Below are positions 1 to 39,780 of a stretch of DNA of 39,780 nt, in pieces. Below the pieces are notes generated by a model, which was not told the origin of the DNA, searched no databases, and saw only the letters and a list, made by a program, of their open reading frames with translations. This DNA is from a virus: positions 1-39,780 of the IMG/VR virus record IMGVR_UViG_3300009082_000010. One strand, given 5' to 3'. Position 1 is the stretch's first letter, and each line of letters starts with the position of its first letter. The translations under genes were made by a program, and so were the position numbers.

Positions 1-418
1 GGGCACTTACTCAAGTACTGTTACCGTAGACTCGTTGGCAAGTACCAAGAAAATAAGTAGCGCCGGGATAAATAGTAGCGGTGATGTCAAGGGAACTACG
101 GGCACTTACTCAAGTACTGTTACTTTAAGTGTTTTAAATATATCGCCCAGCACAATAGATACAGTAACAAATAATACAATTGATTTTAAATCAAGTTACA
201 TGAATATAGTGACATCAACAGGTACTGATACATTAGAAACTATTAACGGTGGTTTAACAGATGGGAACATGTTGATTATAGTTATTGCATACAGTAATAG
301 TCTTTTTATAAAAGCAGCAACTGGGAATATTTGGGATGATAATCACACTATTTCGGCGTATGGAACAGCCATGTTTATATATAATTCTACTATTGGTATG
401 TGGATAAGTATAGATTAA
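1..418 (+). CDS. Fibre-like secreted protein, 3' part (continues from 39308 across the circle join)
   Basis: The open frame runs in from base 2, and joining the 48-base terminal overlap makes it continuous with the reading frame starting at 39308. The joined protein is about 280 residues. This part holds the end of the second copy of a 33-residue tandem repeat (motifs VDSLAST, GDVKGTTGTYSSTVT), then a C-terminal domain rich in beta-branched and small polar residues that ends near GMWISID. It follows the tail-nozzle gene, which is the usual place for fibre or receptor-binding proteins, so a fibre role is inferred from position and composition. I do not recognise a family. The internal ATG at 35 is not the real start. 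Confidence 0.75.
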   Translation, partial: GTYSSTVTVDSLASTKKISSAGINSSGDVKGTTGTYSSTVTLSVLNISPSTIDTVTNNTIDFKSSYMNIVTSTGTDTLETINGGLTDGNMLIIVIAYSNSLFIKAATGNIWDDNHTISAYGTAMFIYNSTIGMWISID

Positions 419-6894: not shown

Positions 6895-7055
6895 AACTAT
6901 CTTGGTTGAAATTGCTTAAAAAAATTGAATCAATCAGAGTTATAATATCATTAGTTATTGGACTCGCTCAGTATCTTGACAAGCACTATTCTAACGATAA
7001 AACTATTAAAGAAACTGTGGCTAAACTAAAAAAGGAACTTGGTGAATTACAATGA
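6891..7055 (+). CDS. Small amphipathic/membrane peptide of the putative lysis cluster
   Basis: The protein has 54 residues from ATG 6891, overlapping the holin-like stop (ATGA) behind GAGGT. It has a basic N-terminus, one weak hydrophobic stretch (residues about 14-28, SIRVIISLVIGLAQYL), then a charged helix. The gene overlaps the next start by 4 bases. It could be an antiholin or a lysis accessory peptide, inferred only from size and neighbours. An upstream in-frame start at 6837 would lie inside the holin gene and is rejected. Confidence 0.5.
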   Translation: MKLSWLKLLKKIESIRVIISLVIGLAQYLDKHYSNDKTIKETVAKLKKELGELQ

Positions 7056-7564
7056 GAACACTTATTATTTTTACGTTATTGGTAATTTTCGGGTGTTGCA
7101 AAAAGACAATTAAAAACACTCCATTACCAGATAATAACGATAGGGTTATAGAAAAACAGGTAACACCCATTGTAGAAAATGAAAAAGGTATTATTTTAGA
7201 TTCTGATACTCTTGTTGGTGATAAAAAAAATGAATGGAGGTTATTGTATACTGTTAAATTCGATTTGAATTCTTCTATTTTACGACCTGTAGAGAAAATG
7301 GCTTTATGTAGATATACAGAAACGTTAAAAGATATTGATTCTATAATACTTATTGGAGGTTGTTGCCCTTTGGGAGATGAAAATTATAATACTACTTTGG
7401 GATACAAAAGAGCTTTTTCTGTTTATACTACCATGAGCTGTTTAAAATCAAAATTTAGTGTCAGGTCTGTCGGAGAACGAGACTTATTGTGTAGCAATAG
7501 TCTTGATTGTTATCCAGAAAATAGAAGATGTGAAATTTTAATAAGGGGGACAAATGAAAACTAA
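7052..7564 (+). CDS. OmpA/Pal-like lipoprotein
   Basis: The protein has 170 residues. The N-terminus is a signal peptide with a lipobox-like VIFGC (Cys 15), predicting a lipoprotein. Residues about 70-167 match the OmpA C-terminal fold: VKFDLNSSILRP at its start, then GG-CCPLGDENYNTTLGYKRA, a VRSVGERD block and a final ENRRCEILI. In Pal and OmpA the GHTDxxG segment supplies the Asp that binds peptidoglycan diaminopimelate; here that position reads C (GGCCPLG), while the Arg of YKRA and the NRR are kept. It follows holin-like genes, so it might serve in outer-membrane disruption or as a spanin substitute. That role is inference. Confidence 0.7.
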   Translation: MRTLIIFTLLVIFGCCKKTIKNTPLPDNNDRVIEKQVTPIVENEKGIILDSDTLVGDKKNEWRLLYTVKFDLNSSILRPVEKMALCRYTETLKDIDSIILIGGCCPLGDENYNTTLGYKRAFSVYTTMSCLKSKFSVRSVGERDLLCSNSLDCYPENRRCEILIRGTNEN

Positions 7565-8852
7565 ATTGTTTGTGTGTTTTTTTATTGGGTTTATTGCAGT
7601 GACATTAAATACTACGTATTGTTGGCCAGGAGCATTTGCAAAGCCAAAAGTCATTGACATTATTGGTAAATCTGGGACTATTTCTGGGCCGTTTGTTGTG
7701 GACAGTTTAAACAGCACCAAGGGAATAGTCGGAACTGGAATTCAAGGAAAAAGTTTTACAATTAATAATGCCTCTGCAAACTCCGTTAATTTAAATATTT
7801 ACGGTAACAATGATAAAACAGACGATGTAAATCATGTTAATTTTTACCGTTCTATCGGTACGTTTGCCGCACCTGGAGCCATAAGGGCTTATGGCAGTCT
7901 TGGTTCTTCTGCAGATGATCTTTATAATTTTAGGTGTTGGGGGTATGATGGAGCTGGTTACGCTTTGGGATCTGAGATGGCAGTCGTACCTAAAGAAGAT
8001 TGGTCTGTAGGTAAACATGGTTGTGATTTTCAACTTTACCTTACTCCAAGTGGTTCAGCTACAATGCAGGAATGTTTAAGGGTAACTACAGATGGTATTT
8101 TTCCAGGAAATGGTAATTTTTTATCATATACTGCCGGTAAAGGGTTTCAGTTGTACTCAGCAGTAACAAGTGCGACGGCTTCAAGGTGTTCTTTTTTTAA
8201 AGCCCGTGGAGACTATGGAACTCCGACTGTAATACTAAATAACGACCCATTAGGTCAATTTGACTTTTTAGGACATGATGGAACTGATTATGTTGTATCC
8301 GCTCAAATAATAGCGGGGGCCTCGGAAAATTGGTCAGAAACGGCAAGGGGAAGCTTTTATAATTTTTACACAACACCTAATACAACGACAACACCAACTA
8401 TCACTCAAATATTATACGGTGATAATATCTATATGGCAAAGCCAGTTGGTATTGGAATGCTATCTCCTAAAGTGGCGATGTTAACTATAGGTCATGATGC
8501 ATCGCGAAATTATGGTTTACGTATTACAGATACAAAGTCTGGGAGAGGTGGAACACTTGATACCTGGGATATATCAACAGGTATCTGGGCACAAGGTCAG
8601 CTTACATTTTATAATTTGTCAACTGGAATCCAGATGAATATTTCATCGGCGGGTAACGTAGCAATTGGAAATAGCGTAACGCAGGGATCCGAAAAACTTA
8701 ATGTTAATGGCGCCATAGCTATAAAAGACAGTATGACCGCTCCCACTGCAACTGCGGGCTTTGCAAAAATATTTGTTGATAGTGCAGACGGAGACTTAAA
8801 AGTTATCTTTGCAAACGGCACGGTAAAAACAATAACAACAGATACACCATAA
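7554..8852 (+). CDS. Secreted fibre-like protein with signal peptide
   Basis: The protein has 432 residues and overlaps the upstream gene by 11 bases. It has a clear N-terminal signal peptide (MKTKLFVCFFIGFIAV, likely cleavage near residues 20-25), then beta-rich, Gly/Ser/Thr-rich repeated structure. The final 60 residues (LNVNGAIAIKDSMTAP, then FAKIFVDSADGDLKVIF) match the C-terminal motif common in phage and surface-fibre proteins. The same motif occurs at the end of the protein at 32690-33136. A fibre, surface or adhesin role is likely; the signal peptide is unusual for a virion protein. Confidence 0.6.
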   Translation: MKTKLFVCFFIGFIAVTLNTTYCWPGAFAKPKVIDIIGKSGTISGPFVVDSLNSTKGIVGTGIQGKSFTINNASANSVNLNIYGNNDKTDDVNHVNFYRSIGTFAAPGAIRAYGSLGSSADDLYNFRCWGYDGAGYALGSEMAVVPKEDWSVGKHGCDFQLYLTPSGSATMQECLRVTTDGIFPGNGNFLSYTAGKGFQLYSAVTSATASRCSFFKARGDYGTPTVILNNDPLGQFDFLGHDGTDYVVSAQIIAGASENWSETARGSFYNFYTTPNTTTTPTITQILYGDNIYMAKPVGIGMLSPKVAMLTIGHDASRNYGLRITDTKSGRGGTLDTWDISTGIWAQGQLTFYNLSTGIQMNISSAGNVAIGNSVTQGSEKLNVNGAIAIKDSMTAPTATAGFAKIFVDSADGDLKVIFANGTVKTITTDTP

Positions 8853-14151: not shown

Positions 14152-14415
14152 TTAATAAATTCTAGACCCAGACCCATACCCAAACCCAAACGACCCATCC
14201 CCAGACCCAGACCCAGACCCAGACGACCCAGACCCATACCCATCCCCAGACCCAGACCCATCCCCAGACGACCCAGACCCATACCCATCCCCAGACCCAG
14301 ACCCATACCCAAACCCAAACGACCCATCCCCAGACCCAGACCCAGACCCATACCCAAACCCAAACGACCCAGACCCAGACCCAGACCCAGACCCAGTAAA
14401 AATTATATTTCCCAT
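14152..14415 (-). CDS. Gly-X dipeptide repeat protein (87 aa)
   Basis: The ATG at 14415 lies inside the end of the upstream gene, so translation is probably coupled. After MGNIIFT the protein is almost entirely Gly-X dipeptides with X = Ser, Phe, Tyr or Asp ([18 protein letters not shown]), ending SRIY. All X codons have the form NNT and every Gly is GGG, so the DNA is a G3N3 hexamer array. Such sequences are disordered and may phase-separate or self-adhere, like silk or FG-repeat proteins. The opposite frame (Pro-Arg-rich) has no ribosome site and runs against the operon. Whether the protein or the DNA/RNA structure is selected is unclear. Confidence 0.5.
14165..14396 (-). repeat. G3N3 hexanucleotide array, G-quadruplex candidate
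   Basis: On the minus strand the tract is GGGTCT, GGGTTT, GGGTAT and GGGGAT units in tandem for about 230 bases, with occasional CGTCT breaks. Dozens of G-triplets separated by three bases satisfy the classic quadruplex pattern, and the units resemble telomeric repeats. The contrast with the AT-rich surroundings is extreme. Both DNA and mRNA could fold, since the mRNA is the G-rich strand. Confidence 0.85.
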
Positions 14416-16500: not shown

Positions 16501-16531
16501 AACTACTCCTTTGTTTATACTGAAAACTTAC
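16498..16531. repeat. 34-bp direct repeat, copy 1 (leader of 16231-16500, end of pentapeptide gene)
   Basis: This is identical to 17361-17394. It contains the start codon, the AAAGGAG site and, on its far side, the last codons of the pentapeptide gene (KFSV-stop). The two copies bracket the pentapeptide gene exactly. Confidence 0.85.
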
Positions 16532-17363
16532 CGGTTATATCTTCGCCTGTATCAACATCAAACACCTGCAAAATTATAATTTTATCCGCAGAAGCCTTGC
16601 CATCTGTAGCCCAAGGCTCATTTATTTTTGCATCTAATGGTATTTGTATTTTTGCTTCAATTCTTCTTTCTGAGTAATTTACAGCGCACCAAGTTCTGCT
16701 TGCAAAATGAAAACCAGGGTTTGAACACAAAATTCTTTCGTCTTCTGCAAAAATTTCTCTTTTTTTTAATTCGTTTAATCCGACTTTAAACTGAAAACCA
16801 TTATTTTTTAAACCTAATTCGAATCGTTTCCAATAAAAATTACCAGGCTCTACACCCATTATTTTTATCAAGCCTTTGGCTCCACGCAAGTTGGCTCTAA
16901 TCAAGTTGGCTCCACGCAAGTTGGCTCTAATCAAGTCGGCTCCACACAAGTTGGCGTCACTCAAGTCGGCGTCACTCAAGTAGGCTCCACTCAAGTCGGC
17001 TCCACTCAAGTCGGCGTCACTCAAGTTGGCTCCACTCAAGTCGGCGTCACTCAAGTTGGCTCCACTCAAGTTGGCTTCACGCAAGTTGGCTCCAATCAAG
17101 TTGGCTCCACTCAAGTAGGCTCCACTCAAGTCGGCTCCACACAAGTCGGCTCCACTCAAGGTGGCTCCACTCAAGTTGGCTCCACTCAAGTTGGCTCCAC
17201 TCAAGTCGGCTCCACTCAAGTCGGCGTCACTCAAGTTGGCTCCACTCAAGTCGGCGTCACTCAAGTTGGCTTTCTTATTAGTTACCAGACAATCCTTTAC
17301 GCTTTCATATTCTCCGCTTAAAATTACTTTTGAATCAACTCTGTTTTTTATTTCTATCAACAT
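16515..17363 (-). CDS. Pentapeptide-repeat protein with C-terminal phage domain
   Basis: The protein has 282 residues. Residues 1-31 form a short leader ([17 protein letters not shown]). Residues 32-161 hold 26 uninterrupted A(N/D/Y/T)LxX pentapeptides ([15 protein letters not shown]), predicting a right-handed quadrilateral beta-helix. Residues about 165-282 are a globular domain with [18 protein letters not shown] and [16 protein letters not shown], a pattern I associate with other phage pentapeptide proteins. DNA-mimicking pentapeptide proteins such as Qnr and MfpA bind gyrase, but no such target is shown here. AAAGGAG precedes ATG 17363. The gene is flanked by a 34-bp direct repeat. Confidence 0.75.
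16881..17270 (-). repeat. 26 tandem 15-bp units of the pentapeptide coding region
   Basis: Near-identical 15-base units (minus strand GCC-AAC/GAC-TTG-AGT-G) run in tandem. Nucleotide conservation between units is high, indicating recent expansion or gene conversion; copy number is likely variable and could be miscounted by short-read assembly. Confidence 0.9.
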
Positions 17364-18111: not shown

Positions 18112-18793
18112 ACTGCTCCTTAGTCATACCATTTGGGTAATTTTTTATTGTTTTTGGCTCATCCATCCATCGCTGTTGATTTATATAAGTTGATGGATTT
18201 GGAATATATTGACCGTTATCTTTTTTCCACTGTTCAGATTCTTTCTGCCATTTTAAAGATTCTAAAATTTTTTCAGAAATTTCTTTTTTATTTTTAATTT
18301 TATTCCATGATTTTAAAGCTGCCCCTTTTCCCGTTTTATTTGGATATTCTGAATACCATTTAATAAAGTGTTCACAAATTTTTTGTTTATCTTCATCTTC
18401 ATTATCAATACCATTTATATTATCATTTTCATTTCCATTTTCAGTATGATTCTCTGATGATTTACGTATGATTACCGTATGATAATCATATGATTTATTT
18501 TTTCTTCCAGAAATTCCTTTATGACTCTTTGAATTACAATAGTTTATACGCTTTTCTATCTCTTCTTGCATTCTTTCGTTGTAATAAAATCCATTATCAT
18601 CTATAATAAATTTTTTCCAAACCGGAGAATCATATGATTTTAATATTTGATACAATTCATCCTTAGTAAAATGCCCTTCTTGATGTTGAGAACATAGTGC
18701 CCTGATATATTGCCCGACCTGTTCATCTGTTAATCTTGATGTTCTTGTTAAAAAGTCGGCTGTATAAAATAAAACCGCTGGGTCTTTTGCCAT
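18098..18793 (-). CDS. O-like replication initiator with internal iterons
   Basis: The protein has 231 residues. Residues 1-90 (DPAVLFYTADFLTRTSRLTDEQVGQYIRAL) are the DUF1376/YdaU-type helical domain seen in phage replication proteins. Residues about 90-132 are a polar linker (SENHTENGNENDN). Residues 135-225 resemble the C-terminal region of phage replisome organisers (HFIKWYSEYPNKTGKGAALKSW, then YIPNPSTYINQQRW). The linker is encoded by DNA carrying 11-bp iterons also found in the 26-kb intergenic region, as in lambda O, whose gene contains ori. It is coupled to the DnaC-like gene. The start at ATG 18793 has only a weak GGA. Confidence 0.75.
   Translation of the reverse strand: MAKDPAVLFYTADFLTRTSRLTDEQVGQYIRALCSQHQEGHFTKDELYQILKSYDSPVWKKFIIDDNGFYYNERMQEEIEKRINYCNSKSHKGISGRKNKSYDYHTVIIRKSSENHTENGNENDNINGIDNEDEDKQKICEHFIKWYSEYPNKTGKGAALKSWNKIKNKKEISEKILESLKWQKESEQWKKDNGQYIPNPSTYINQQRWMDEPKTIKNYPNGMTKEQYDLF
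18440..18494. repeat. In-gene iterons (11-bp period)
   Basis: Five in-phase 11-base units end in TATGAT or GATGAT (18440, 18451, 18462, 18473, 18484); the last three are near-identical to the intergenic iterons. The reverse complement shares a 29-base perfect match with 26431-26459. Another ATCATATGAT unit lies near 18629. Confidence 0.8.
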
Positions 18794-22767: not shown

Positions 22768-23025
22768 TTATAATTTATAAATTGACACTATACTATAATT
22801 ACATAATGGAAATATAGAACTATATTCATTTTTTTTTGTTATAAAAATACATTCGTTTACAATAGATATTACCGTTCCGGTATCATAAAATATTCCTCCA
22901 TATTTTTCTTTGATTTGTATTGATAATCCTAAACTGTCTTTAGCAATTATTTGAGAGTACGAATTATAACTCAATAAAAATAATACAACTAAAAATAAAT
23001 ATATTAAAAACTTTTTATCTTTCAT
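22768..23025 (-). CDS. Secreted small protein (85 aa)
   Basis: A classic signal peptide (KDKKFLIYLFLVVLFLLSYN), likely cut after SYS, is followed by a 60-residue beta-rich domain (SIQIKEKYGGIFYDTGTVIS). AAGGAG precedes ATG 23025. An early exported protein might act in the periplasm, for example in superinfection exclusion; this is inference. Confidence 0.6.
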   Translation of the reverse strand: MKDKKFLIYLFLVVLFLLSYNSYSQIIAKDSLGLSIQIKEKYGGIFYDTGTVISIVNECIFITKKNEYSSIFPLCNYSIVSIYKL

Positions 23026-25808: not shown

Positions 25809-25986
25809 CCACAAAAGGCTTGCGTATGGTACAATTATTTTGTCAATTTTGAAAGTATTTTTGTGTAGCTTAAGTTATTGTAAAATATACAACTTGTATT
25901 ATTGTTTGTAAATTATGACAATAAAAGTTTGATTTTTTGTATAAATAATTGTTTTTAAAAATATAATTTTTTGATATAATATCGTT

Positions 25987-26030
25987 ATCATACGTTAATC
26001 ATACGTTAATCATACGTTAATCATATGATT
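25987..26030. repeat. Iteron array A (4 x 11 bp)
   Basis: ATCATACGTTA occurs three times in tandem (25987, 25998, 26009), then ATCATATGATT (26020). The 11-bp spacing places each unit on the same DNA face. Confidence 0.85.
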
Positions 26031-26095
26031 AAATATTTAGTAGGTACAAAAAAAATAACTCTTTTTATTAAAATATTGATTATATTATAGTAGTA

Positions 26096-26268: not shown

Positions 26269-26409
26269 AAAACGCTGTCGGGGGGGTTTTCTTTATGTTT
26301 TTTAATTTCTTTTGGATATTTTAATATTTAAAACCTAGTATACAAAAACACAATAACTTAAAAACTAAAGCATAAATCATTGAAAAATATATACTTATAT
26401 AAAGAAAAA

Positions 26410-26464
26410 ATCATACGGTAATCATACGTTAATCATATGATTATCATACGGTAATCATATGATT
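26410..26464. repeat. Iteron array B (5 x 11 bp)
   Basis: Units begin at 26410 (ATCATACGGTA), 26421 (ATCATACGTTA), 26432 (ATCATATGATT), 26443 (ATCATACGGTA) and 26454 (ATCATATGATT). The TATGATT form contains the perfect palindrome ATCATATGAT. Confidence 0.85.
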
Positions 26465-26511
26465 AAATATAACGCATATATTAACACCAATAACACCATC
26501 TCAACACCAAT

Positions 26512-27753: not shown

Positions 27754-29226
27754 ATGCAGGGTATACAGGGGTATGTGCCGAGTGTTACGAATGGTACATT
27801 AACATCAATGCGGACATGGAGACCACAGGTAGGTAAGCAAGAGCTTATTTTACAGAGGTCTGAGAGGGAGGTTTGTGCTGGAGGTGCGCGTGGTGGTATA
27901 AAGTCGGAGAGTGGTTTAGCATTGGGAATAGACCCTGAGGTGATATATAATCCGCGTTTTCAGGGATTAGTTATCAGGAAGAATTACCAGGATTTAGCAG
28001 ATTGGATACAGCGTGCCAGGATATTTTATGATGGATTTGCTACAATAATGGGAAATCCGTCAGAGATACATTGGAAGGGGAAGAATGGGCAAGCTGGTGG
28101 TATAACAAGGTTGAGTCATTGGAAGGATACGTCTGATATTAGCTCTCACATAGGGAAAGAGTATCAGAGGTTAAATATAGAGGAATTGACTGATTGTGTA
28201 AAAAGTCTTGAAGAGTATAAAATGTTATTGGGTAGTTGTCGGAGTACAATAGAGGGAGTAAAACCTAAGATATATTTAAGTACAAATCCCGGTGGCCCTG
28301 GTCATGGTTGGGTAAAGGAATATTTTGTAAATAAGGCAACGATGAAGCCATATTATGATGATGGTTTGAAATCGTGGCGTATTTTTATACCAACGACAAT
28401 AGAAGATAATCCGATTTTAATAGAGAGAGACCCGGAGTATTATAATTATTTGCGTAGTTTGCCGGAACCGTTGTATTCGATGTGGTATAAGGGTTCGTGG
28501 GATGTGGCTCCTGGAATGTTTTTTTATGATTTTGATACGCATTTATCTATAGAGCCTCACAGAATACTTGGAGATTTGGCGGCGAATAGGCTGTTTGGCG
28601 CTCTTGATATAGGAGTAGGCCATCCTACAGCCTTTGGTTTATTTTATTTGACTCCAGAGGGTAGGATTGAGTTGTTGTTTAGTTATGTAAAAAAGCAACA
28701 AGACCATAGGAGTCATGCGCAGGCTATATTTCAGAAAATTGAGAGTTTTGGGGATTGGATAGACGGGTGTTTTCCTTTAAAGATTTTTTGTGGACATGAT
28801 TTTGACAGGACTTTTAAGGCAAGTCAAGAAGTTCAAATATGTGCGAGAGATGAATATGAGGATGTTTTCAGATCTAGGGACACACAGTTTGTACTTGCAA
28901 ATATAGAGCGGGTATATGGGTGTCAGTGTCTTAGGACTGTTTTGAGTTGTGCAAAAGGAGTACCGGCGTTTTTGTATTGGAAGTTATTTAATTCAGAATT
29001 TGAAACGGCATTAAAGAATATACCAGTTGATAAAACAAATATAGAATGTTATGACAAGGTCACTGGTGATGATGCTGCGGATATGTTCCGGTATGGGGTT
29101 GCTGGTGTTATGTCGGAGATAAACACGGAAAAACAGCGCAGGGAAACATCAAAAAGAACAGGTGTAATACCTTTTGATATGAGCGGTTTAAATAATTATG
29201 AGTTTAAGGAAACGGGATTAGTATGA
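27754..29226 (+). CDS. terL: Large terminase subunit (packaging ATPase-nuclease)
   Basis: The protein has 490 residues. ATPase: Walker A GGARGGIKS (43-51), Walker B with NIEELTDC (141-148), coupling motif STNPGGPGHGW (176-186). RNase H-like nuclease: FGALDIGVGHP (D285), CGHDFD (D349/D351) and GDDAADMFRYG (D443). It pumps DNA into proheads and cuts the concatemer. The glycine normally just before the Walker A lysine is Ile49. GATAGGT precedes ATG 27754; the stop overlaps the next start (ATGA). Confidence 0.9.
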   Translation: MQGIQGYVPSVTNGTLTSMRTWRPQVGKQELILQRSEREVCAGGARGGIKSESGLALGIDPEVIYNPRFQGLVIRKNYQDLADWIQRARIFYDGFATIMGNPSEIHWKGKNGQAGGITRLSHWKDTSDISSHIGKEYQRLNIEELTDCVKSLEEYKMLLGSCRSTIEGVKPKIYLSTNPGGPGHGWVKEYFVNKATMKPYYDDGLKSWRIFIPTTIEDNPILIERDPEYYNYLRSLPEPLYSMWYKGSWDVAPGMFFYDFDTHLSIEPHRILGDLAANRLFGALDIGVGHPTAFGLFYLTPEGRIELLFSYVKKQQDHRSHAQAIFQKIESFGDWIDGCFPLKIFCGHDFDRTFKASQEVQICARDEYEDVFRSRDTQFVLANIERVYGCQCLRTVLSCAKGVPAFLYWKLFNSEFETALKNIPVDKTNIECYDKVTGDDAADMFRYGVAGVMSEINTEKQRRETSKRTGVIPFDMSGLNNYEFKETGLV

Positions 29227-29492: not shown

Positions 29493-30077
29493 ATGAAGAC
29501 GAAATTATTGTTAATCTTTTTAGTATTTGTGTGTTTAGCTCAAAGTACCAATAAAAAGATAATGAATTGGAAGGGCTGGGGTGATACTGTTTCTATTCGC
29601 CAGATACAGGATACCGGAGTTTTTTATTATAGTAGGGCATTAAGTATAACAGATGGTGAAGATTTTACCTTGATGTGCAAATGTAATGATACGACATCGG
29701 CAGGTTTTGCAAGCGATAGTTTAAATTTTATGTGGGGGTATCAATTAGGGAATCCATCTTTGACATCTACAGGAGTGGTTGACACGGTCTGGTCAAAATC
29801 AGATTGCTTTATTGTTGATACTATAACGACAGATAGTTTAGGAACTGGTCGTATAGGATACACTAGCCCAGGCGGAGCCATCAATCGGTATTACAGAGGA
29901 ATTGATACTAGTTCTATTTCTGGCTATGCTATACAGGATCGTTGGGTTGTATCAGAGTGGAAGCCTCTTATTAGGTTTTGGATGTCTCCAATTAGTGTAA
30001 AGCATAAAAAAGGATCTTATGTTAAAACTATTTTCCAGCTTACACAGAGAAATAATACTATAGTTGGAAATCGTTAA
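29493..30077 (+). CDS. Signal-peptide-bearing beta-rich protein in the head cluster
   Basis: The protein has 194 residues. The N-terminus KTKLLLIFLVFVCLAQS is a standard Sec signal; it shares MKTKL with the fibre-like protein at 7554. The mature part is beta-rich (GDTVSIRQIQDTGVFYYSRAL; VVDTVWSKSDCFIVDTI), like decoration or adhesin domains. It sits between terL and portal. A signal peptide is unexpected for a cytoplasmically assembled virion. Function unknown. Confidence 0.6.
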   Translation: MKTKLLLIFLVFVCLAQSTNKKIMNWKGWGDTVSIRQIQDTGVFYYSRALSITDGEDFTLMCKCNDTTSAGFASDSLNFMWGYQLGNPSLTSTGVVDTVWSKSDCFIVDTITTDSLGTGRIGYTSPGGAINRYYRGIDTSSISGYAIQDRWVVSEWKPLIRFWMSPISVKHKKGSYVKTIFQLTQRNNTIVGNR

Positions 30078-30094
30078 TAATAATGGAGGTAATA

Positions 30095-30139
30095 ATGTCG
30101 ACTTGTAAAAAAGGCAAAAAAAAAGGTGTTAAAAAATAA
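30095..30139 (+). CDS. 14-residue Lys-rich microprotein
   Basis: A near-perfect ribosome site (GGAGG, 5 bases before ATG) precedes a 14-codon frame MSTCKKGKKKGVKK, stopped 5 bases before the portal ATG. Either a real microprotein or a translational leader that couples ribosomes to the portal gene, which lacks its own Shine-Dalgarno site. Confidence 0.45.
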   Translation: MSTCKKGKKKGVKK

Positions 30140-30144
30140 TTGTG

Positions 30145-31962
30145 ATGGCTACAAATATACCTAAACAAATGGATAAATATAAAAGCAGTGTCCAGAATTG
30201 GGTTTGTGGAGCTATAGAAGACTATTATAGCCACAGATGTTTTAAAAGCCTGAAAAAAAGAGTTAATAAACTTAGCAATTCTATTGATATGTTATTCGGT
30301 AATGAATCTTCTGGCACAAATAGGCCACAGAATCAATTTAAATCAAACATTGCTATACCTTTGGCTAGAGAGGCTTTTGTTGCCAGAAGATCCATTACAT
30401 CAAGTGTTTTTACCAGTCCTGATTTGATTACAGTATATCCTGATGGATATACACCATGGGAAAATGCAAGAAATATGCAAGATGTGATGATTGCCATGCT
30501 TAAATCTACAGGATATATACAAAATACTTTACAGCCAATTATTGATAGTGTTAGTCGTTGGGGTGTAGGTGTTGCGGTGACTTCGTGGGATACCAAAGAG
30601 CGGTATTTCTGGAGAACTACAGAAAAACGTGTTAATGATATGTTTATGGGATATGAAAGAATACAGGATGTAAGCAGAAAAAAAGGATGCTATGCAACTC
30701 CTATAAATATATTAAATTATTTTCAACAGCCGGACCAGCCAGATTATCTTAAAGCAAGGTATCGAGGCTATAAAGATCGGTTACCACTGCACAAGTTAAT
30801 AAGAATGGCGAAAGAAAATCCTGATGTGTATATAAAAGATGCTGTAATAAAGCTTATCAAGGACGCTGAAAAAGGAAGCGTTGGTGATAAAAATTATTAT
30901 AATAACAAACAACAGTCATTATCTCAACTAACCTATGTGGATATAAGTCATTATTATGGAACACTCGACTTTGAAGGGAATAGAGAAGACGATACAATCT
31001 ATTATATCCAGGAGTGTAATGGAAATATTATAAGGATACAGGAAAATCCTTATGATGAAAATAGAATACCTATTGATGTTTTTAGAATGGATCCGCGTCC
31101 AGAATTTTTTTGGGGAAACGCGGAGCCTGAAAATGTCATGCCTATGGAAAATTATCTGCAATTTGCCTTTTCTACATTTGCGACAAGTGCTTTACAGGAA
31201 ATGCAGAGATATATTTTTTACGATACCGCCAGCGGACTTGATATTACCAGAATTCAGAACGCTGCAAAATCTTCTGGCTTTGTTGGTGTTGATAAAAAAC
31301 CTAATCAAAAAATGTCAGATATTCTATATCAACACCAGTTTCCGAGTGTATCAACTAGTAATTTGCAATATATTGCTAATGAAATGAAGGAAGCTGCCCA
31401 GAGAAGCAGAACGAAGGCAGATTTTAGCAGACAAGAAAATGAGGGCGGGCTAAGAAACAAAACTGCTACTGCTGCAAATATTATGGCAAATCAGGGGAAC
31501 GTTCAGGAACAGTATTATTTGACACAATTTTCCTACGGTCTTATCAATAATATGCGGACAATGCTTGTTCTTCTGAAACAACATGCTGGTAATGTGCTAT
31601 TAATAGATAAACCGCCAACGGGTAAAATAGAATTATTAAAACGTCAGATACTTGGTGATTTTAACCCAGAACTTAAAACTTCACTAACTCAAAATACCAT
31701 GAATCAGGTTCAAAAATTATTAAATATCATAACCGCAGTGCAAAACTTCAAGGGGTCTGGCGACCCTGCAATTATGAGATTTAATATAGCTCCATATTTA
31801 CGGGAATGGGCGAAACTTGTGAGTGATAATATTAGTGTAGACAGCGTGTATCCTGAAATTAGTCAGGAAGAACAAATGGCAATGCAGCAACCGCAGCAAC
31901 CTCAAATTCCAGTACAACCACAGCCTCAACCACAACAACAAGGAGTACCGGTTAATGCTTAA
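30145..31962 (+). CDS. Portal protein
   Basis: The protein has 605 residues from ATG 30145 (a GTG one codon earlier is also possible). Typical portal features: a helical N-terminus, NQFKSNIAIPLAREAFVARR (clip/stem entry), DSVSRWGVGVAVTSWD, and a wing region near residue 300 (IRIQENPYDENRIPIDVFRM). Late residues include an Arg/Asn-rich stretch (RSRTKADFSRQENEGGLRNK), and the end is Pro/Gln-rich. Twelve copies would form the DNA entry vertex. Its position after terL and before the scaffold and capsid genes supports the call. No Shine-Dalgarno site is visible; coupling to the 14-codon ORF is likely. Confidence 0.8.
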   Translation: MATNIPKQMDKYKSSVQNWVCGAIEDYYSHRCFKSLKKRVNKLSNSIDMLFGNESSGTNRPQNQFKSNIAIPLAREAFVARRSITSSVFTSPDLITVYPDGYTPWENARNMQDVMIAMLKSTGYIQNTLQPIIDSVSRWGVGVAVTSWDTKERYFWRTTEKRVNDMFMGYERIQDVSRKKGCYATPINILNYFQQPDQPDYLKARYRGYKDRLPLHKLIRMAKENPDVYIKDAVIKLIKDAEKGSVGDKNYYNNKQQSLSQLTYVDISHYYGTLDFEGNREDDTIYYIQECNGNIIRIQENPYDENRIPIDVFRMDPRPEFFWGNAEPENVMPMENYLQFAFSTFATSALQEMQRYIFYDTASGLDITRIQNAAKSSGFVGVDKKPNQKMSDILYQHQFPSVSTSNLQYIANEMKEAAQRSRTKADFSRQENEGGLRNKTATAANIMANQGNVQEQYYLTQFSYGLINNMRTMLVLLKQHAGNVLLIDKPPTGKIELLKRQILGDFNPELKTSLTQNTMNQVQKLLNIITAVQNFKGSGDPAIMRFNIAPYLREWAKLVSDNISVDSVYPEISQEEQMAMQQPQQPQIPVQPQPQPQQQGVPVNA

Positions 31963-32329
31963 AAAAATAATTAAGGCAATAATATCGTGGATTATGTCGG
32001 AAGAAATCAAGAATATCGAAACTCTTCTTGACAAAGCTAAAAAAAATCACGACAAAAGCGTTAAGTCGTGTAATTACACAATTGTAGAGATACCGGATGA
32101 GCTTGCGTTTATTGACGAAATGGACAAAATCGCAGAAAACAAGTATTTTCAATGGTTGATATTTACCAGCCAGCGGGATATAATGAATGAGATTGTTAAA
32201 ATTGACAATAAAGAAAAAGACTTTTTAAGTGGTGCCTTGTTCGGAATAAACTCTTTGGCTCAGAATGCAATTTCTTTTAGTCAGACACACAGGAGAATAA
32301 AGGAACAAAAGGAAAATAGCGATGATTAA
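31955..32329 (+). CDS. Hypothetical structural-operon protein (124 aa)
   Basis: The ATG overlaps the portal end with AGGAG 9 bases upstream; an alternative start MSEEIKN at 31994 lacks a better site. Helical and charged (IETLLDKAKKNHDKSVKSCN). It overlaps the next start by 8 bases. Function unknown. Confidence 0.5.
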   Translation: MLKKIIKAIISWIMSEEIKNIETLLDKAKKNHDKSVKSCNYTIVEIPDELAFIDEMDKIAENKYFQWLIFTSQRDIMNEIVKIDNKEKDFLSGALFGINSLAQNAISFSQTHRRIKEQKENSDD

Positions 32330-32693
32330 TAGCGAAAAGTATGTGGATATAAAAAAGAAATATCCTAGAAATGTATTAAATATTCCTATAAAATACAATT
32401 TGTCAATGATTAATAGAGTTAAAAAGTTGTTGCCTGATGTCGATATTGAACATGTTGACGAATATATCAGAGATAAAGACAAGAGACCGTTTGGAATGTA
32501 TGAGTTTTATTCTAAAGAAAGATTGTCTGGGAAAATAGAAGTACATGACGGAATAATAACAAAAATATTTTATGTTGACACTATACTCTTTAAAGGGAAA
32601 ATAATAAGTGTGGGAATAATAACCATTTTAAACGATTGTGTATCTTTTGGAAAAACTAATAAAATAAACAATGAAAAGGAGAAAAAAAAATGA
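32322..32693 (+). CDS. Hypothetical structural-operon protein (123 aa)
   Basis: AAGGA lies 8 bases upstream of ATG 32322. Basic and mixed alpha/beta (KYVDIKKKYPRNVLNIPIKY; SVGIITILNDCVSFG). It overlaps both neighbours (ATGA at 32690). No family recognised. Confidence 0.5.
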   Translation: MINSEKYVDIKKKYPRNVLNIPIKYNLSMINRVKKLLPDVDIEHVDEYIRDKDKRPFGMYEFYSKERLSGKIEVHDGIITKIFYVDTILFKGKIISVGIITILNDCVSFGKTNKINNEKEKKK

Positions 32694-33136
32694 AAAACAT
32701 TCAGGTTCTATTTTTAATTATTGCATTAGTGATAACAGCCTCTTTTGGAATGAAAAAAGTAAATAGCAGATGGGTTCCTGAAGAAATTGACTTTATACAG
32801 GATGGCGGTGGGCCTAGATATAAAAACATTGATTCTTTGCTTACTGAAGTGGCAAATATTTTTGACGGTACAAGAAATAGTGATAAGCTCAATGTTTCTA
32901 AAGTTACAGCAGACACGCTGGCGATAGGAAAAATTACCGCTACATCAACTCTTACTGTTAATGGCATTACGGATACCGGAAACGTTAATGTTGTTGGAAG
33001 AGTTATTGCTAAATATAGTACTCCTGACACACTGGTTGTAGGTTCTGGTGGTTCCGCATTTACTAAAATATGGATGGATGCTGATTCCCTAAAAGTCATA
33101 GTTGGCGGTACAACGTATAAGTTTTTAAAAGATTAA
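32690..33136 (+). CDS. Signal-peptide-bearing fibre-like protein (148 aa)
   Basis: The N-terminal signal peptide is KNIQVLFLIIALVITASFG. The C-terminal region (TLTVNGITDTGNVNVVGRV, then SAFTKIWMDADSLKVIVGG) repeats in short form the module that ends the 7554-8852 fibre-like protein. AAAGGAG precedes the ATG. It lies just before the scaffold gene. It may be a decoration, spike or exported adhesin; unresolved. Confidence 0.55.
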   Translation: MKNIQVLFLIIALVITASFGMKKVNSRWVPEEIDFIQDGGGPRYKNIDSLLTEVANIFDGTRNSDKLNVSKVTADTLAIGKITATSTLTVNGITDTGNVNVVGRVIAKYSTPDTLVVGSGGSAFTKIWMDADSLKVIVGGTTYKFLKD

Positions 33137-33179
33137 CGCTATTAATTATATAACAACCCAAAAAAAGGGATAAATAAAA

Positions 33180-34334
33180 ATGTCAGAAGAAACACAAGAA
33201 ACTCAAGTTACCGATAATAATGTATCGGTAAATCAGGATGATGTCGTAAACAGTTATCTGAAAGAATATGAATTTCATGATGATAGTTTAAAAGACAACA
33301 AAGGAAAAAATACCGAAGAATCGGATAATAAAGAAGAGCCAAAAGAATCTGGAGAAAAACAGGACAAAAAGGATGATAATAATATTCTTCCTTTTAAACC
33401 AAAATCAATAAAAGATATAAAGCAGATTCCGCAGGATTTTACAGGATCATTTTTTAAAAAAACCGATTCTGGTATAGACTTTGATGCTGAAAAACATCTT
33501 AAATTTGCCATGGATGAGAAACCGGTTTTTGAGTATAAGACAAGCAGAAAGATTGTTGATAAACCAGACGAAGGATTGAATTCAAAACCTGTTGACGAAA
33601 AAGAACAAGTTAGACAGGAGATAATGGAACATAAAGAGAAAAGGGATAATCTTAAAAATAATCTTACGCTTGGATTAACAGAGCTATATGAAGAAATCAA
33701 GACAGCGGCTGGCGGGACATTCCCGCAGGACTTAGTCCCATATTTCAGAAATGCTCTAAACAAGATAGAAGGTGTTTTAGCTCAGAAATATGAGGAAATG
33801 GATATTGAAGAAAAGGTTAATTTAAGAGTTTCCGGAAAGAAAGAGCAGGAAGAAAAAGAAAGATGGAAAAGACTGGAAAATGATGCTGTTGTAAATGAAA
33901 ACAGGTTAGTTCAAAGAATGGCACAGAAATTTGGAATAACTGATATTAAAGAGGCTTCTGAAACATACACAAAATTGATGCGAGGGTATGCCAGACCGAT
34001 TGTTGACCAGTTATTTGATTTAAGTCATCCTGATTTACATGAATGTAGTTCGAGAGAACTTGGAGAAAAATATAACAAATGGTATTATGAACGCATTGCG
34101 AGCAATCCTCAGATGCTTGACTTTATATACCAATACAGTATAAATGCCTTGAATACCGAGTTACTGCCTTATCATATTGAAAAAGCAGTTCACGGGAATA
34201 CCAGGCATTCACAACAAATAAAAACAGGAAAACCTCAAGCTCCAAGTAATATAAATAGAGAAGCGCCTTCACCTGTAAATGACGATGTCGCAAAAACTCT
34301 TAAATATTTTGGGCAAGATGTTACTGAAATTTAA
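33180..34334 (+). CDS. Scaffolding-like protein upstream of the capsid gene
   Basis: The protein has 384 residues. The first 130 are acidic and disordered (KNTEESDNKEEPKESGEK). The middle is helical and charged with EEKERWKRLENDAVVNENRL, and the C-terminus is basic (QQIKTGKPQAPSNINREA). Acidic disordered start, helical body, basic end and position immediately before the major capsid gene fit a scaffolding protein, which assembles with the capsid protein and leaves before packaging. No protease domain was seen. AAGGGA precedes ATG 33180. Confidence 0.65.
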   Translation: MSEETQETQVTDNNVSVNQDDVVNSYLKEYEFHDDSLKDNKGKNTEESDNKEEPKESGEKQDKKDDNNILPFKPKSIKDIKQIPQDFTGSFFKKTDSGIDFDAEKHLKFAMDEKPVFEYKTSRKIVDKPDEGLNSKPVDEKEQVRQEIMEHKEKRDNLKNNLTLGLTELYEEIKTAAGGTFPQDLVPYFRNALNKIEGVLAQKYEEMDIEEKVNLRVSGKKEQEEKERWKRLENDAVVNENRLVQRMAQKFGITDIKEASETYTKLMRGYARPIVDQLFDLSHPDLHECSSRELGEKYNKWYYERIASNPQMLDFIYQYSINALNTELLPYHIEKAVHGNTRHSQQIKTGKPQAPSNINREAPSPVNDDVAKTLKYFGQDVTEI

Positions 34335-34351
34335 CAGAAAAAGGAAAAATT

Positions 34352-35545
34352 ATGGGTACATACACTGATCTTTATACTACGCAGACATTGTCAACAACAG
34401 GAACGCGGAAGCGTGATGTTGGCGATACTATACGCCACTTGATGCCAAGTGCAAGTCTTATGCCTTTGGTGTCTAGTGGAAACATAGAAGGCATTGAAGG
34501 CGTTTCCAGGGAACGCAAGCTCTTTGGAAAACGTAAGGTAAAATCGCCTCTTTTTGAGGGATTTACATGGAGTCCATTTGCCATTACATTTACAACTACT
34601 TCTTACGATGGCAGTACTGCTCTAGTTGTTACGTCTACCACTGGAATAGTAGGTAAAATGTCTTTAGTAAATACTTCCAACAATACAACGTGTTATGTTG
34701 ATAGTGTTACAAATGGTACTACTCTTGTAGTGACTACTTATGGAGCTACCGCCTTTAGCGCGGCGGCTGGTGATGTCTTGATGTGTTTAACTATACACAT
34801 GGAAGAAAAGTCTTCAGTACCTCCGATATTGATGAAAGACCCCGATAATTTTAACAATATTACTTTTATTCATAGAAGTGCTACTGGAATATCATGGACA
34901 GCCAGACAGTCAGAACACTTCGGAGGTGATAGATACACTCACATGAAGAAAGAAAGTCATACTTCGGCAATGAGAAATATCAGCAATACTCTGTTGTTTG
35001 ATAACAAGCCTGGTTCCGGAGAAAAGAACACTAGCGGCCTTGGAACCACTTATGGTTCTTGTGATGGACTTGTTGCTTTTGCTGGTTCCGAGTTTGATTT
35101 TAGAGGCGCCCCTACTTATGAAAGTTTTATCAATGAAGGGCCTTTGAAATGGGGTGATAGCGTAAGTTCAGACACAACAATGCTTATGTTTTGTGGATAT
35201 GAGTTTTGGGCTACTATTTTAGGTTGGATGAATTCCGGATTATGCGAATGTGAACCTGGAACTTACGACAAATGGGGAGTTAAATCAAACAAGTTAATGA
35301 CCTGTAGGGGTGATGTGGAAGTTATGATTATAGATGCTTATAATCGTGGTGATTTCAAACGCCAGGCATTAGTATGTAATCCAGAAAATATTGACTTTAT
35401 CTATCTTAACAATTGCGATCTGCAGATACGAGAGGGTATCCAAAATGCTAGTGTACATGGCGATGAAGATGAGCTCTGGGGTGAAATTAGTATCATGAGT
35501 AACGACAATGGCGACAGTATTTGTAAATATGTCAACGTGTTATAA
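34352..35545 (+). CDS. SU10-like major capsid protein
   Basis: The protein has 397 residues. The N-terminus (TTGTRKRDVGDTIRHLMPSASLMPLVSSG) and the segment ERKLFGKRKVKSPLFEGFTW match the SU10 major capsid family (DUF5309, HK97 fold). An insertion of Thr/Ser/Gly-rich beta sequence lies at residues about 85-145 (VVTSTTGIVGKMSLVNTSNN), probably a surface domain. The C-terminal half (ENIDFIYLNNCDLQIREGIQ) is the conserved core. AAAGGA precedes ATG 34352. Confidence 0.75.
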   Translation: MGTYTDLYTTQTLSTTGTRKRDVGDTIRHLMPSASLMPLVSSGNIEGIEGVSRERKLFGKRKVKSPLFEGFTWSPFAITFTTTSYDGSTALVVTSTTGIVGKMSLVNTSNNTTCYVDSVTNGTTLVVTTYGATAFSAAAGDVLMCLTIHMEEKSSVPPILMKDPDNFNNITFIHRSATGISWTARQSEHFGGDRYTHMKKESHTSAMRNISNTLLFDNKPGSGEKNTSGLGTTYGSCDGLVAFAGSEFDFRGAPTYESFINEGPLKWGDSVSSDTTMLMFCGYEFWATILGWMNSGLCECEPGTYDKWGVKSNKLMTCRGDVEVMIIDAYNRGDFKRQALVCNPENIDFIYLNNCDLQIREGIQNASVHGDEDELWGEISIMSNDNGDSICKYVNVL

Positions 35546-35584
35546 TTTACAAACATTATTAAAATAAAAAAAAAGGAAAAAAGT

Positions 35585-36082
35585 ATGAAAAATTTATTTA
35601 AATCAATAATAATGATTGTTGTTGTATTTATTGCTTCTGGATATTCTGCAGCAACAAGTACAATACCAACAAGTTACCCATATTGTATTATGGATACAGC
35701 GATAAGCTACACAACAGCTTTTGATACTATAGCTACAACGGGTAACATTACTCTTGTTTCTAAATTTATACCAGACCCTGGTTGGGAGTACATTTTAAAA
35801 AAAGGCATTCTTACAGGAACTAATGCTAACTCTTGTTATATGCAGGTACTTGTAATATGTAGAGATCCAAAAGGGATTGCAACAGATACCGTTATAGTAG
35901 ATAGTATTACATCTTCAACACCGGAAAATATTACAATACCAATAGGTCAAACTGTTATAGGACATAGTTTTGATATTGTAATTCTTGGATATGGTTCCAA
36001 TGGAGCACAAATAATATTTAATAGGTTGTATCTGTGGAAACGTGCTGTATACGATATAAATAAAACTTGGATTAATAAATAA
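35585..36082 (+). CDS. Signal-peptide-bearing protein next to the capsid gene
   Basis: The protein has 165 residues. The N-terminus KNLFKSIIMIVVVFIASGYSA is a Sec signal with an AxA-type site (YSA). The mature part is beta-rich (FDTIATTGNITLVSKFIPDPG), resembling Ig-like or jelly-roll decoration modules. It follows the major capsid gene, where decoration proteins often lie. A signal peptide on such a protein is unusual. AAAAGGA precedes the ATG. Confidence 0.6.
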   Translation: MKNLFKSIIMIVVVFIASGYSAATSTIPTSYPYCIMDTAISYTTAFDTIATTGNITLVSKFIPDPGWEYILKKGILTGTNANSCYMQVLVICRDPKGIATDTVIVDSITSSTPENITIPIGQTVIGHSFDIVILGYGSNGAQIIFNRLYLWKRAVYDINKTWINK

Positions 36083-36675: not shown

Positions 36676-37389
36676 ATGGCTTTCTTAAAAAACATTTATA
36701 CACAAATAGCTAATGCATTTAAAGAATTCATTGGGGGTTCAAATACTGGTGAATATATAAATGACTTGGCATTACATTATATAAATAGAGCACAGGAAAG
36801 CCTTAATGTTTATAGAAAGTGGCAAGGGCTTACTATGATACAAACCCTTACACTTTCCGGTAAAACTACAACAGCCATACCAGATGGTTTAATTATTAAT
36901 GTTTTTGAAGATACTGATGGCGATGGGTTTCCAGACAAATATTATTGGAATAAATCTTCAAATACCAGTGATGGCTATTTTATTAACAATACCTTTTCTA
37001 AGGCAAGTGGATTTACAAGAACAATAACATTTTACTCAACTCCTGGTAGTGCCCCAAAAATGGAATACATTAAAATTCTTGAAGATTTTACTGGAACTGG
37101 TACAGAATATTCATTTTTCCCGGCCAATATGTTAATCGCAAAAGCTGCTATGCTGTATCTTGAGGCAGATGGAAGGATAGGAACACCAGAGTACGTTATG
37201 CATCAAAATTGTTTACTAAATGAAATTGTAGACTTTTGTAATGCTACACAGGCGGAAAATATAGATATTGTCAACAACATAAAAGATGATTTTGGCAATG
37301 TAACAGAAGTACAGGGATATAATTTAATAGATGGAGACGAACTTGGATCTAATGGATATAATTATGATCCAATAGTAGATATACGATGA
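36676..37389 (+). CDS. Head-tail adaptor / tail tubular protein A-like
   Basis: The protein has 237 residues. The N-terminal helices (IGGSNTGEYINDLALHYINRAQESLNVY pattern) and the later NMLIAKAAMLYLEADGRIGTPE match the fold of podovirus adaptor proteins (P22 gp4 / T7 gp11 group). A beta insertion lies between. The stop overlaps the next start by 4 bases. The role is joining portal to tail nozzle. Confidence 0.6.
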   Translation: MAFLKNIYTQIANAFKEFIGGSNTGEYINDLALHYINRAQESLNVYRKWQGLTMIQTLTLSGKTTTAIPDGLIINVFEDTDGDGFPDKYYWNKSSNTSDGYFINNTFSKASGFTRTITFYSTPGSAPKMEYIKILEDFTGTGTEYSFFPANMLIAKAAMLYLEADGRIGTPEYVMHQNCLLNEIVDFCNATQAENIDIVNNIKDDFGNVTEVQGYNLIDGDELGSNGYNYDPIVDIR

Positions 37390-39311
37390 ACTACGGTAAA
37401 AGAGAATTAAATCCGCTGTCAATAGCTGACTACGAGCATGGACTGAATGACACAGAACGAGTTTCTGATGTCGGAAAGGCATATTTTCAAAGATACCCTA
37501 GACACCATTGCGTACAATGTAATAATGTGGTTTTAGACCAAATGAAACATAGACCTGGAAGCGAGGCTATAAAATCAGATATATCAGGCAGACTATGGGG
37601 AATGGATTTTTATAAGCAGGATAATGGTAGTGAAACGCTGCTTGTAGTTGTTGGTCAGAAGTTATACTCTCAAAATACAAGCAATGGAACTCTTACTGAA
37701 CTCTATGACTTTGGTGGTTCCGGAGAAACATATTTTCAAACTTTTGCTAATAAATGTTGGATTACCAATAGCAAAAATGTTATAAAAATAGAAGGAACGA
37801 CAGCGTACCAGGTTGGAATAACTCCGCCTACCGGAGTCGTTGCCACAGCCTCCGCTGGTGGAAGTCTACCAGATGGAGTATATCAAATTTACGTTAGTTA
37901 TTCCAGATATTCTGGTGGAATTAATTTGTTGTTTTCACTGGGGCAAAATATTGCAAGTGTTACTTTAGGAACCGGAAATAACACAATAGCAATTACCAAT
38001 TTTGCTAATTCAAGCGATCCACAAGTAGGTAATAAAGTGGTCTGGATGACAGACGCTGGTGGATCTCTATTTTATCTATATTACCAGACAACAAATAATA
38101 CTACAACAGCATTCAATATTACAAGTGCTAGCGGAAAGAGCACCGCCTTTACCTATGACATATATGCTGCTACAAACTATGTCCCTGGAGCCTTTGAATA
38201 TATTTGTGTATTTGACAAAAGAGTGTGGGGAAGTATTGGTAACACTTTGTATTATAGTCTCCAACAGGGTAATGTATATGATTTGGAAAGATTTGATACA
38301 AGTAGCGACTTTATTATTATGCCGTATCCAATTGAGGGTATATTCCAACTAAATGGATATATATATCTAAACACGAAATTCGGTTTAATAAAACAAGCAC
38401 CCGATCCTTATTCAAGGTATGAAATTATAGGCAGTGGAAATATAACACCGACATATTTCAGGTATCCGCGCACTGTGGCTTCTGATGGATCATCTTTAAT
38501 GGGGGTTACCAATAAAGGGTTTCATATATTTGATGGAGATAAGTGGTATACAAATGATTTCAGTAAAAATATTAAAACAAGTATTAATAATTTATACTCT
38601 TGTTCTACAACATATTTTTGGCCTGCTGCAACAATAGCAACAAGAAGCAATAGGACAGAGTATCACCTGCTATATAAGGACACTACTTCTGGAACAATGA
38701 ACAATAGAAGGCTTGTTTTAAATATCACCAAAACTCAGATACTTGACAAAGAAGACTTTATTGCTCCATGGGAGATGTGGGATAACAGCGGAAATTATAT
38801 TGCTGTTAATTCATCAAACAATGTTTATGTGGGGCAAAATCATTCTACAACCTCGGTAGTTTATAAAGAGCAAACATCAACTTGCCAGGACATAAATATT
38901 TATATCGGTAATACTTTAACAGCACAGAGGAATATACCGTATTTAATACGCACTGGAACCATAACGCCAGAACTGGATAGTATTACAAAGTGGGAGAATA
39001 TAAGAATTCTGGCTCATTTTTTAAGAAGTTTTTATGTAAGAATACAGCCCGTTAATAAATCAGAAATCGATATTGAATCAGAATTAATTCCAACCCTGCA
39101 AAACACGGTCGAAGGGTTTATTTTAGATGAAAGTGTGCTTGATGTCGATACTTTTGGAGGTATGGGAGACGAACCTCAAAGATACAGATTGCCTGGTGGA
39201 AGAAAAGGTTATAGCTTTTACGTTGAAATAACACAAACAGAAGATGATAAAGATTTTCAATTAATGGAATTAGATTTACATGGATACTTAACAAGAGGAC
39301 GTATGATATGA
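37386..39311 (+). CDS. Tail nozzle / hub protein (T7 gp12 or P22 gp10-like)
   Basis: The protein has 641 residues. A long beta-rich, aromatic-rich protein of propeller type: HRPGSEAIKSDISGRLWGMD near residue 60, repeated strands with VVGQKLYSQNT, then VPGAFEYICVFDKRVWGSIG near residue 265. The C-terminal ~200 residues include EDFIAPWEMWDNSG. The family forms the tube at the base of short tails and opens the vertex. Its position between adaptor and fibre genes supports the call. The stop overlaps the fibre start (ATGA). Confidence 0.65.
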   Translation: MNYGKRELNPLSIADYEHGLNDTERVSDVGKAYFQRYPRHHCVQCNNVVLDQMKHRPGSEAIKSDISGRLWGMDFYKQDNGSETLLVVVGQKLYSQNTSNGTLTELYDFGGSGETYFQTFANKCWITNSKNVIKIEGTTAYQVGITPPTGVVATASAGGSLPDGVYQIYVSYSRYSGGINLLFSLGQNIASVTLGTGNNTIAITNFANSSDPQVGNKVVWMTDAGGSLFYLYYQTTNNTTTAFNITSASGKSTAFTYDIYAATNYVPGAFEYICVFDKRVWGSIGNTLYYSLQQGNVYDLERFDTSSDFIIMPYPIEGIFQLNGYIYLNTKFGLIKQAPDPYSRYEIIGSGNITPTYFRYPRTVASDGSSLMGVTNKGFHIFDGDKWYTNDFSKNIKTSINNLYSCSTTYFWPAATIATRSNRTEYHLLYKDTTSGTMNNRRLVLNITKTQILDKEDFIAPWEMWDNSGNYIAVNSSNNVYVGQNHSTTSVVYKEQTSTCQDINIYIGNTLTAQRNIPYLIRTGTITPELDSITKWENIRILAHFLRSFYVRIQPVNKSEIDIESELIPTLQNTVEGFILDESVLDVDTFGGMGDEPQRYRLPGGRKGYSFYVEITQTEDDKDFQLMELDLHGYLTRGRMI

Positions 39312-39780
39312 GATTAAATACAATATTTTTTTTAATTTTGGCTATATTTTTTTGTATATTTGCGGTAAACAATATTACTTTTGACAATACGTATCAGCCT
39401 CACGTTGTTCTAAGAGCATCACAACTAAACGAAGACAACGACAGCACAGAGGCATGGGCTGACAGAGTAACAGATACGTTAAACGATGTTGTACCAAGAT
39501 TAAATACGATTAGAACGATATTAAAAGATTCTACTTTTCAGAAAATAAATGTTGATAGCATAAGAAGTAATCCTAATATTGATAGCATAAGTGGAGATGT
39601 TAGATTTTTAGGAAGTCCAATAATTAATGGAACAATAACAGTCGGTAGTACAGCAAGCGTAGACTCGTTGGCAAGTACCAAGAAAATAAGTAGCGCCGGG
39701 ATAAATAGTAGCGGTGATGTCAAGGGAACTACGGGCACTTACTCAAGTACTGTTACCGTAGACTCGTTGGCAAGTACCAA
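39308..39780 (+). CDS. Fibre-like secreted protein, 5' part (continues at base 1)
   Basis: ATG 39308 overlaps the nozzle stop. The N-terminus is a hydrophobic signal-like segment (RLNTIFFLILAIFFCIFAV), then a helical region with RASQLNEDNDSTEAWADRVT and beta repeats. From 39659 a 99-bp tandem repeat (33 codons) begins. The frame continues at base 2 of the window; the assembled protein is about 280 residues. Probably a tail fibre or surface adhesin. Confidence 0.7.
   Translation, partial: MRLNTIFFLILAIFFCIFAVNNITFDNTYQPHVVLRASQLNEDNDSTEAWADRVTDTLNDVVPRLNTIRTILKDSTFQKINVDSIRSNPNIDSISGDVRFLGSPIINGTITVGSTASVDSLASTKKISSAGINSSGDVKGTTGTYSSTVTVDSLAST
39659..39757 (+). repeat. 99-bp tandem repeat in the fibre gene (2 copies across the join)
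   Basis: A 33-codon unit (starting GTAGACTCGTTGG) is followed by a second copy running from 39758 through the join to about base 124 of the window. The period of 99 bases is also visible at 1 and 100. Extra copies could have been collapsed by assembly. Confidence 0.85.
39733..39780 (+). repeat. 48-base terminal overlap with 1-48
   Basis: Bases 39733-39780 equal 1-48 exactly, and the coding frame is preserved across the join. This suggests a complete circular map (circularly permuted or terminally redundant genome). Confidence 0.9.

Follow-up and report, generated by a model that had tools for sequence, protein, structure and literature searches.

Signal peptides in the late gene cluster of a viral contig

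Why should a tailed phage, belonging to a group taught as cytoplasmic assemblies, encode proteins that begin like secreted proteins in the midst of its head genes? This question is raised by the contig IMGVR_UViG_3300009082_000010, the whole of which (39,780 bases, hereafter the window) was analysed. Its late half is ordered terL, portal, scaffold, capsid, adaptor, and nozzle (Table 1), with the portal, capsid, and adaptor matching the SU10 families PF23899, PF17236, and PF24175 above cut-off, and the contig ends in an exact 48-bp terminal repeat that falls within a tandem repeat of the gene termed fibre1. The phage has few recognizable kin, as queries with its capsid and portal returned no close relatives from IMG/VR, and its portal, capsid, nozzle, and fibre1 have no relatives in INPHARED. 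Elsewhere in the window, clusters of an 11-nt repeat, TTAATCATACG, occur at 25965-26047 and 26388-26481, between two transcription units, as well as within a coding region (18441-18501), and are possible origin or regulator sites. Other features include a pentapeptide-repeat protein (16515-17363, minus strand) with a 15-nt unit repeated across approximately 0.5 kb, a low-complexity GSGSG/GFGYGSG reading frame (14152-14415) with an ACCCAG-type repeat as its source, and a radical SAM protein (10377-11162, minus strand) resembling the RlmN type through its CxxxCxxC motif.

Table 1. Window features considered here, in order along the late genes and across the circular closure (arrows mark predicted cleavage sites)
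Feature	Coordinates	Strand	Description	Basis
terL	27754..29226	+	terminase large subunit	PF04466, phrog_2
SP1	29493..30077	+	194 aa, between terL and portal; signal MKTKLLLIFLVFVCLA↓QSTNKK or ...AQS↓TNKK; 3 Cys	SD TAAGGA
Portal	30142..31962	+	SU10 type, without signal	PF23899 E 4e-12
SP2	32690..33136	+	148 aa; signal MKNIQVLFLIIALVITASFG↓MKK; C-terminus fibre-tip-like	SD AAGGAG
Capsid	34352..35545	+	major capsid protein, SU10 type, without signal	PF17236 E 2e-5
SP3	35585..36082	+	165 aa, directly after major capsid gene; signal MKNLFKSIIMIVVVFIASGYSA(A)↓	SD AAGGA
Adaptor	36676..37389	+	SU10 type, without signal	PF24175 E 3e-6
Nozzle	37386..39311	+	nozzle/head-closure protein, without signal	phrog_8040 E 4e-12
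Fibre1, first part	39308..39780	+	signal MRLNTIFFLILAIFFCIFA↓VNN, then repeat-bearing fibre-like body	directly after nozzle gene
Fibre1, second part	2..418	+	continuation past circular closure	48-bp terminal repeat; joined translation
Lipoprotein	7052..7564	+	OmpA/Pal-like, lipobox VIFG↓C, presumed lysis cassette	lipobox; OmpA-type profile scores
Fibre2	7554..8852	+	432-aa phage fibre; signal MKTKLFVCFFIGFIAVTLNTTYCWPGAFA↓KPK; C-terminal tip GFAKIFVDSADGDLKVIFANGTVKTI	

Signal peptides were detected with a home-made heuristic, not SignalP or TMHMM, which looks for a positively charged n-region followed by a hydrophobic core of 10 uncharged residues and a plausible cleavage site, and which was applied in the same form to the window and to its viral and low-GC controls. 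Seven of the approximately 66 window genes exhibit the full pattern: SP1, SP2, SP3, fibre1, fibre2, the lipoprotein gene, and a minus-strand gene (22768-23025) encoding an early-region protein of 85 aa whose strong signal closes in SYS↓Q. The same scan found no signal pattern in the terL, portal, scaffold, capsid, adaptor, or nozzle proteins. Hydrophobic cores of the strongest window signals reach a mean KD of 3.0-3.8. Small residues at -3/-1, a positive n-region, and an uncharged hydrophobic core occur together in SP1, SP2, SP3, and fibre1, while fibre2 also carries the features of Sec and signal peptidase I recognition, albeit with a weaker c-region. An artefact of wrongly chosen starts could be ruled out, since the ATGs of these five genes all have SD sites (TAAGGA, AAGGAG, AAGGA, AGGA, and TAAGG) and no alternative SD-preceded start further downstream would eliminate a signal. 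In SP2 and fibre1, the start additionally overlaps the preceding stop codon (ATGA).

Such signals are also enriched in the window. When structural ORFs of at least 100 aa are counted, 6 of 20 in the window are signal-positive versus 6 of 994 genes across L002-L099, the control loci from related viral contigs (Fisher p 2e-8), and 5 of 20 are positive once the lipoprotein is set aside (p 8e-7). Chance hydrophobicity in AT-rich DNA is ruled out by three further controls, as the signal-positive fraction is 1/209 among low-GC controls, 0/61 among spurious window ORFs, and 0.2-1.2% among shuffled versions of the same window proteins. A sequence-only reading of this DNA had proposed that the five proteins start with classic signal peptides and had called this unexpected for virions assembled in the cytoplasm; the heuristic scan, the SD-preceded starts, and the enrichment over control loci bear out the first statement, and the second is likewise justified.

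According to a report on Porphyromonas gingivalis phages, the substrates of Bacteroidota signal peptidase I carry Gln at +1 (PMC10367356). Within the window, this Q rule fits only SP1 (LA↓QSTN) and the 22768 product (SYS↓QII), and not SP2, SP3, fibre1, or fibre2. Because just these two proteins conform, the host need not belong to the Bacteroidota.

Fibres, a likely lipoprotein, and the head-module proteins

The clearest indication of what the signal-bearing proteins might be is provided by fibre2 which, judged by its C-terminal tip, is a true phage fibre. An HMM of this tip scores fibre2 at E 4e-28, the protein also matches PDB chain 8ol4 (E 1e-6), and a degenerate DNA scan for the tip identified 13 viral contigs (L005-L017), in nearly all of which it forms the very C-terminal end of a fibre-like protein. 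Fibre2 thus shares its ending with a family of phage fibres characterized by AKIYVDTADGDLKVIFGDGTVKTI (the KIYVDTADGDLK tip). It differs from them at the opposite end: among the tip-bearing fibres of the 13 contigs, a signal peptide is missing from every copy whose N-terminus is intact, so that in fibre2 a signal has been added to a known fibre type. SP2 perhaps shares the same ending, as it ranks second behind fibre2 among the window proteins in the tip HMM search, and although its score is weak (E 0.02), it is probably a mini-fibre.

Fibre1 is regarded as fibre-like because its gene lies directly 3' of the nozzle gene, a usual place for a fibre. Joined across the contig junction, it encodes 280 aa and contains a tandem 99-nt unit, inside which the contig closes (39647-39780 and 1-123); the number of repeat units may consequently be collapsed or variable. 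A resemblance between its N-terminus and that of the fibre in contig L005, suspected by eye, was unsupported, and a motif scan was also empty.

The signal-bearing gene immediately preceding fibre2 likely encodes an OmpA-like lipoprotein, with matches to TIGR02802 (E 3e-7) and Pfam OmpA (E 0.0035) that both fall below the curated cut-offs. It adjoins a holin-like gene (6676-6894) and a gene for a small membrane protein (6891-7055), and could possibly serve as an outer-membrane part of lysis. The gp002 protein of the crAss-like phage phi14:2 is likewise annotated as containing an OmpA domain.

Searches of Pfam, PHROGs, NCBIfam, and INPHARED revealed no relatives of SP1 or SP3, tblastn with SP1 yielded no significant match, and AF2 models built without an alignment were unusable for both (pLDDT 30 for SP1 and 49.6 for SP3). 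Foldseek returned weak beta-sandwich matches for SP3, which were not relied upon. From gene position, SP3 is a candidate capsid decoration protein, as the SU10 gene directly 3' of the capsid gene encodes an Ig-like domain protein. None of the phages compared offers an MS precedent for signal-bearing head-module proteins, which could instead be envelope proteins. It is conceivable, if rather unlikely, that the five are a mixed set: fibre1, fibre2, and the mini-fibre would be exported to become part of the virion, while SP1 and SP3 would be host-envelope proteins (for exclusion, receptor masking, or envelope change) whose genes simply happen to reside in the late operon. Several observations would fit such a division: fibre homology is firm only in fibre2 and weak in SP2, SP1 and SP3 have no relatives, the OmpA-like lipoprotein indicates that the window does target the envelope, and, in the P. 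gingivalis report, the authors link Q-rule signal genes of unknown function to outer-membrane change (PMC10367356). Set against this is the location of SP1 and SP3 inside the head module, with SP3 occupying the very place of the SU10 Ig-like protein.

Signal-bearing fibres with virion labels in other phages

Do proteins of this kind ever end up in virions? Twelve Cellulophaga phage proteins combine a signal peptide with an MS/MS virion label, these labels being annotations in sequence records whose underlying data are presumably those of a PNAS 2013 paper. They comprise phi10:1 gp091-094 (gp092 passing only a relaxed form of the test), phi19:1 gp101-104, and phi18:3 gp085-087, all labelled structural, together with phiSM gp08, which was first seen among the Bacteroidota phage controls. 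Signals are absent from the remaining MS/MS-labelled virion proteins to which the test was applied in phi10:1, phi18:3, and phiSM. In these phages, the signals are confined to tail fibre, spike, and other surface candidates and are lacking from capsid and tail-core proteins, while the PHROGs classes of the signal-bearing proteins are tail fibre, tail, virion structural protein, and pectate lyase. Genes of the same kind with signals occur in phi46:3, Ingeline, and Nekkels, where structural or pectate lyase labels were assigned by similarity or without stated evidence. No significant blastp match was obtained between window proteins and phi10:1 gp091-095, phi18:3 gp085-087, or phiSM gp08/09.

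One of the Cellulophaga signals is also under selection. The gp093 protein of phi10:1 and gp086 of phi18:3 are 83% identical, but over residues 1-118 only, and phi10:1 gp094 and phi18:3 gp087 are alike in only about their first 70 residues. The start of gp094, signal included, shows approximately 88-94% identity across a stretch of 42-53 residues among phages of the Assiduviridae, Pachyviridae, and Duneviridae. The first 42-118 residues with the signal are common to three Cellulophaga phage families, whereas the remainder of the protein diverges. The 20 signal codons of gp093 and gp086 differ by 7 changes, all of them synonymous, which under neutrality has a probability of approximately 4e-5. 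Since the protein sequence is identical despite these synonymous changes, the signal is evidently under purifying selection and is, by these comparisons, retained within an N-terminal fibre segment that is itself exchangeable.

Two rival views of the window proteins can be weighed against this material. The sequence-only reading had offered both, suggesting either that the N-terminal segments anchor proteins in virions or that the phage builds a cell-surface layer late in infection, with decoration of released particles among its possible purposes. That the hydrophobic N-termini serve as uncleaved virion-docking segments, or are simply tolerated, would agree with the cytoplasmic virion assembly of all well-studied tailed phages. 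We nonetheless regard this as improbable, as these N-termini resemble signal peptides in the charge of the n-region, the length of the core, and the make-up of the c-region, and the residue following the predicted cut in the Cellulophaga set is nearly always Gln, as for Bacteroidota signal peptidase I, a residue of which a docking segment would have no need. Comparably improbable is the alternative that none of the five is a virion part and that they instead work on the cell surface in late infection, in exclusion, adhesion, or biofilm. A signal peptide does normally imply export, and unattached fibres could occupy the receptors of sister cells or of debris; nevertheless, fibre2 bears a phage-fibre tip, and the analogous signal-bearing fibres carry virion labels in four Cellulophaga phages. 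Of the two earlier suggestions, the evidence thus comes closest to decoration of released particles, in the sense of exported fibres ending in virions, and disfavours uncleaved anchors.

The terL relatives of the window phage (up to 43% identity over a segment) have no signal peptides on their structural genes. Among other Bacteroidota phages, none of 18 virion proteins tested in phi14:2 has a signal, the heuristic test found no signals on the fibres of B40-8, P12002L, or phi14:2 (signals in P12002L and B40-8 occur only on spanin- or lipoprotein-like genes), and it found none in Salinibacter M1EM-1. Flavobacterium phage FCL-2 (L184, 45363-45806) encodes a small signal protein with a fibre-like start, QVGIATTTPTETLDVNG, that is matched in 78 Flavobacterium phage records, and Flavobacterium phage 6H (L191, 8153-8707) encodes a signal-bearing protein near its tail genes.

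A proposed export route and its relation to known systems

The reading we favour, at a probability of approximately 0.5, is that the five window proteins are outer virion components with working Sec signals that are exported and join the particles at lysis. It counts two fibres, one probable mini-fibre, and two candidate decoration proteins; that the proteins are exported and cleaved, when they attach, and that SP1 and SP3 serve in decoration is what we infer. The five proteins would be made late and cross the inner membrane via Sec, after which their signal peptides would be removed and the proteins would fold and oligomerise in the periplasm. Lysis would then mix cytoplasm and periplasm, allowing attachment to finished heads and tails at that moment or just after. 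Such late attachment is possible, given that in well-studied phages fibres can be added to completed particles extracellularly. A broader and more tentative proposal, which we consider possible but doubtful, is that fibres and capsid decoration are alike routed through Sec, with outer parts gained from the periplasmic side at lysis, and that this second assembly compartment is used independently by phages of different hosts.

Taken together, the comparisons suggest that some phage outer parts may leave the cytoplasm before joining the particle. If this is true, Sec-routed fibres and decoration proteins may be disulfide-bonded or processed outside the cytoplasm, exported phage proteins could act on sister cells prior to lysis, and they could also be mislabelled as host proteins. 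A lack of signals in phage hypervariable proteins has been taken as support for their phage origin (PMC6199706), a criterion that our data suggest is unsafe. The literature searched, which did not include the study behind the MS/MS data, yielded no description of signal-bearing fibres in virions.

Among known systems, Escherichia phage SU10 (Kuravirus) resembles the window in its portal, capsid, and adaptor families and in the order terL, portal, scaffold, capsid, small protein. However, its genome is about twice the size, and by the heuristic none of its structural genes is signal-bearing, the sole positive being a putative holin. The P. gingivalis Nixviridae phages, as described in that report, likewise pair tailed-phage genes with Sec signals. 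Their Q-rule genes are of unknown function and are read by the authors as host-envelope modifiers, whereas we read the window set as virion-surface parts; the same report also mentions capsid proteins with signals, presumed to be cut by the prohead protease (PMC10367356). Another parallel is found in the Cellulophaga phages (phi10:1, phi19:1, phi18:3, phi46:3, Ingeline, Nekkels, and phiSM), where several adjacent late fibre-type genes each carry a Sec signal and the virion core does not. Their signals mostly follow the Gln rule and reside on fibre and spike genes, whereas the window also carries signals on the small genes interspersed among those for terL, portal, and capsid. The signal pattern is extended in the window to the terL-capsid interval of a phage unrelated to them by sequence. 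Phage fibres and decoration proteins are familiar as a kind; what is unusual here is the proposed Sec export route.
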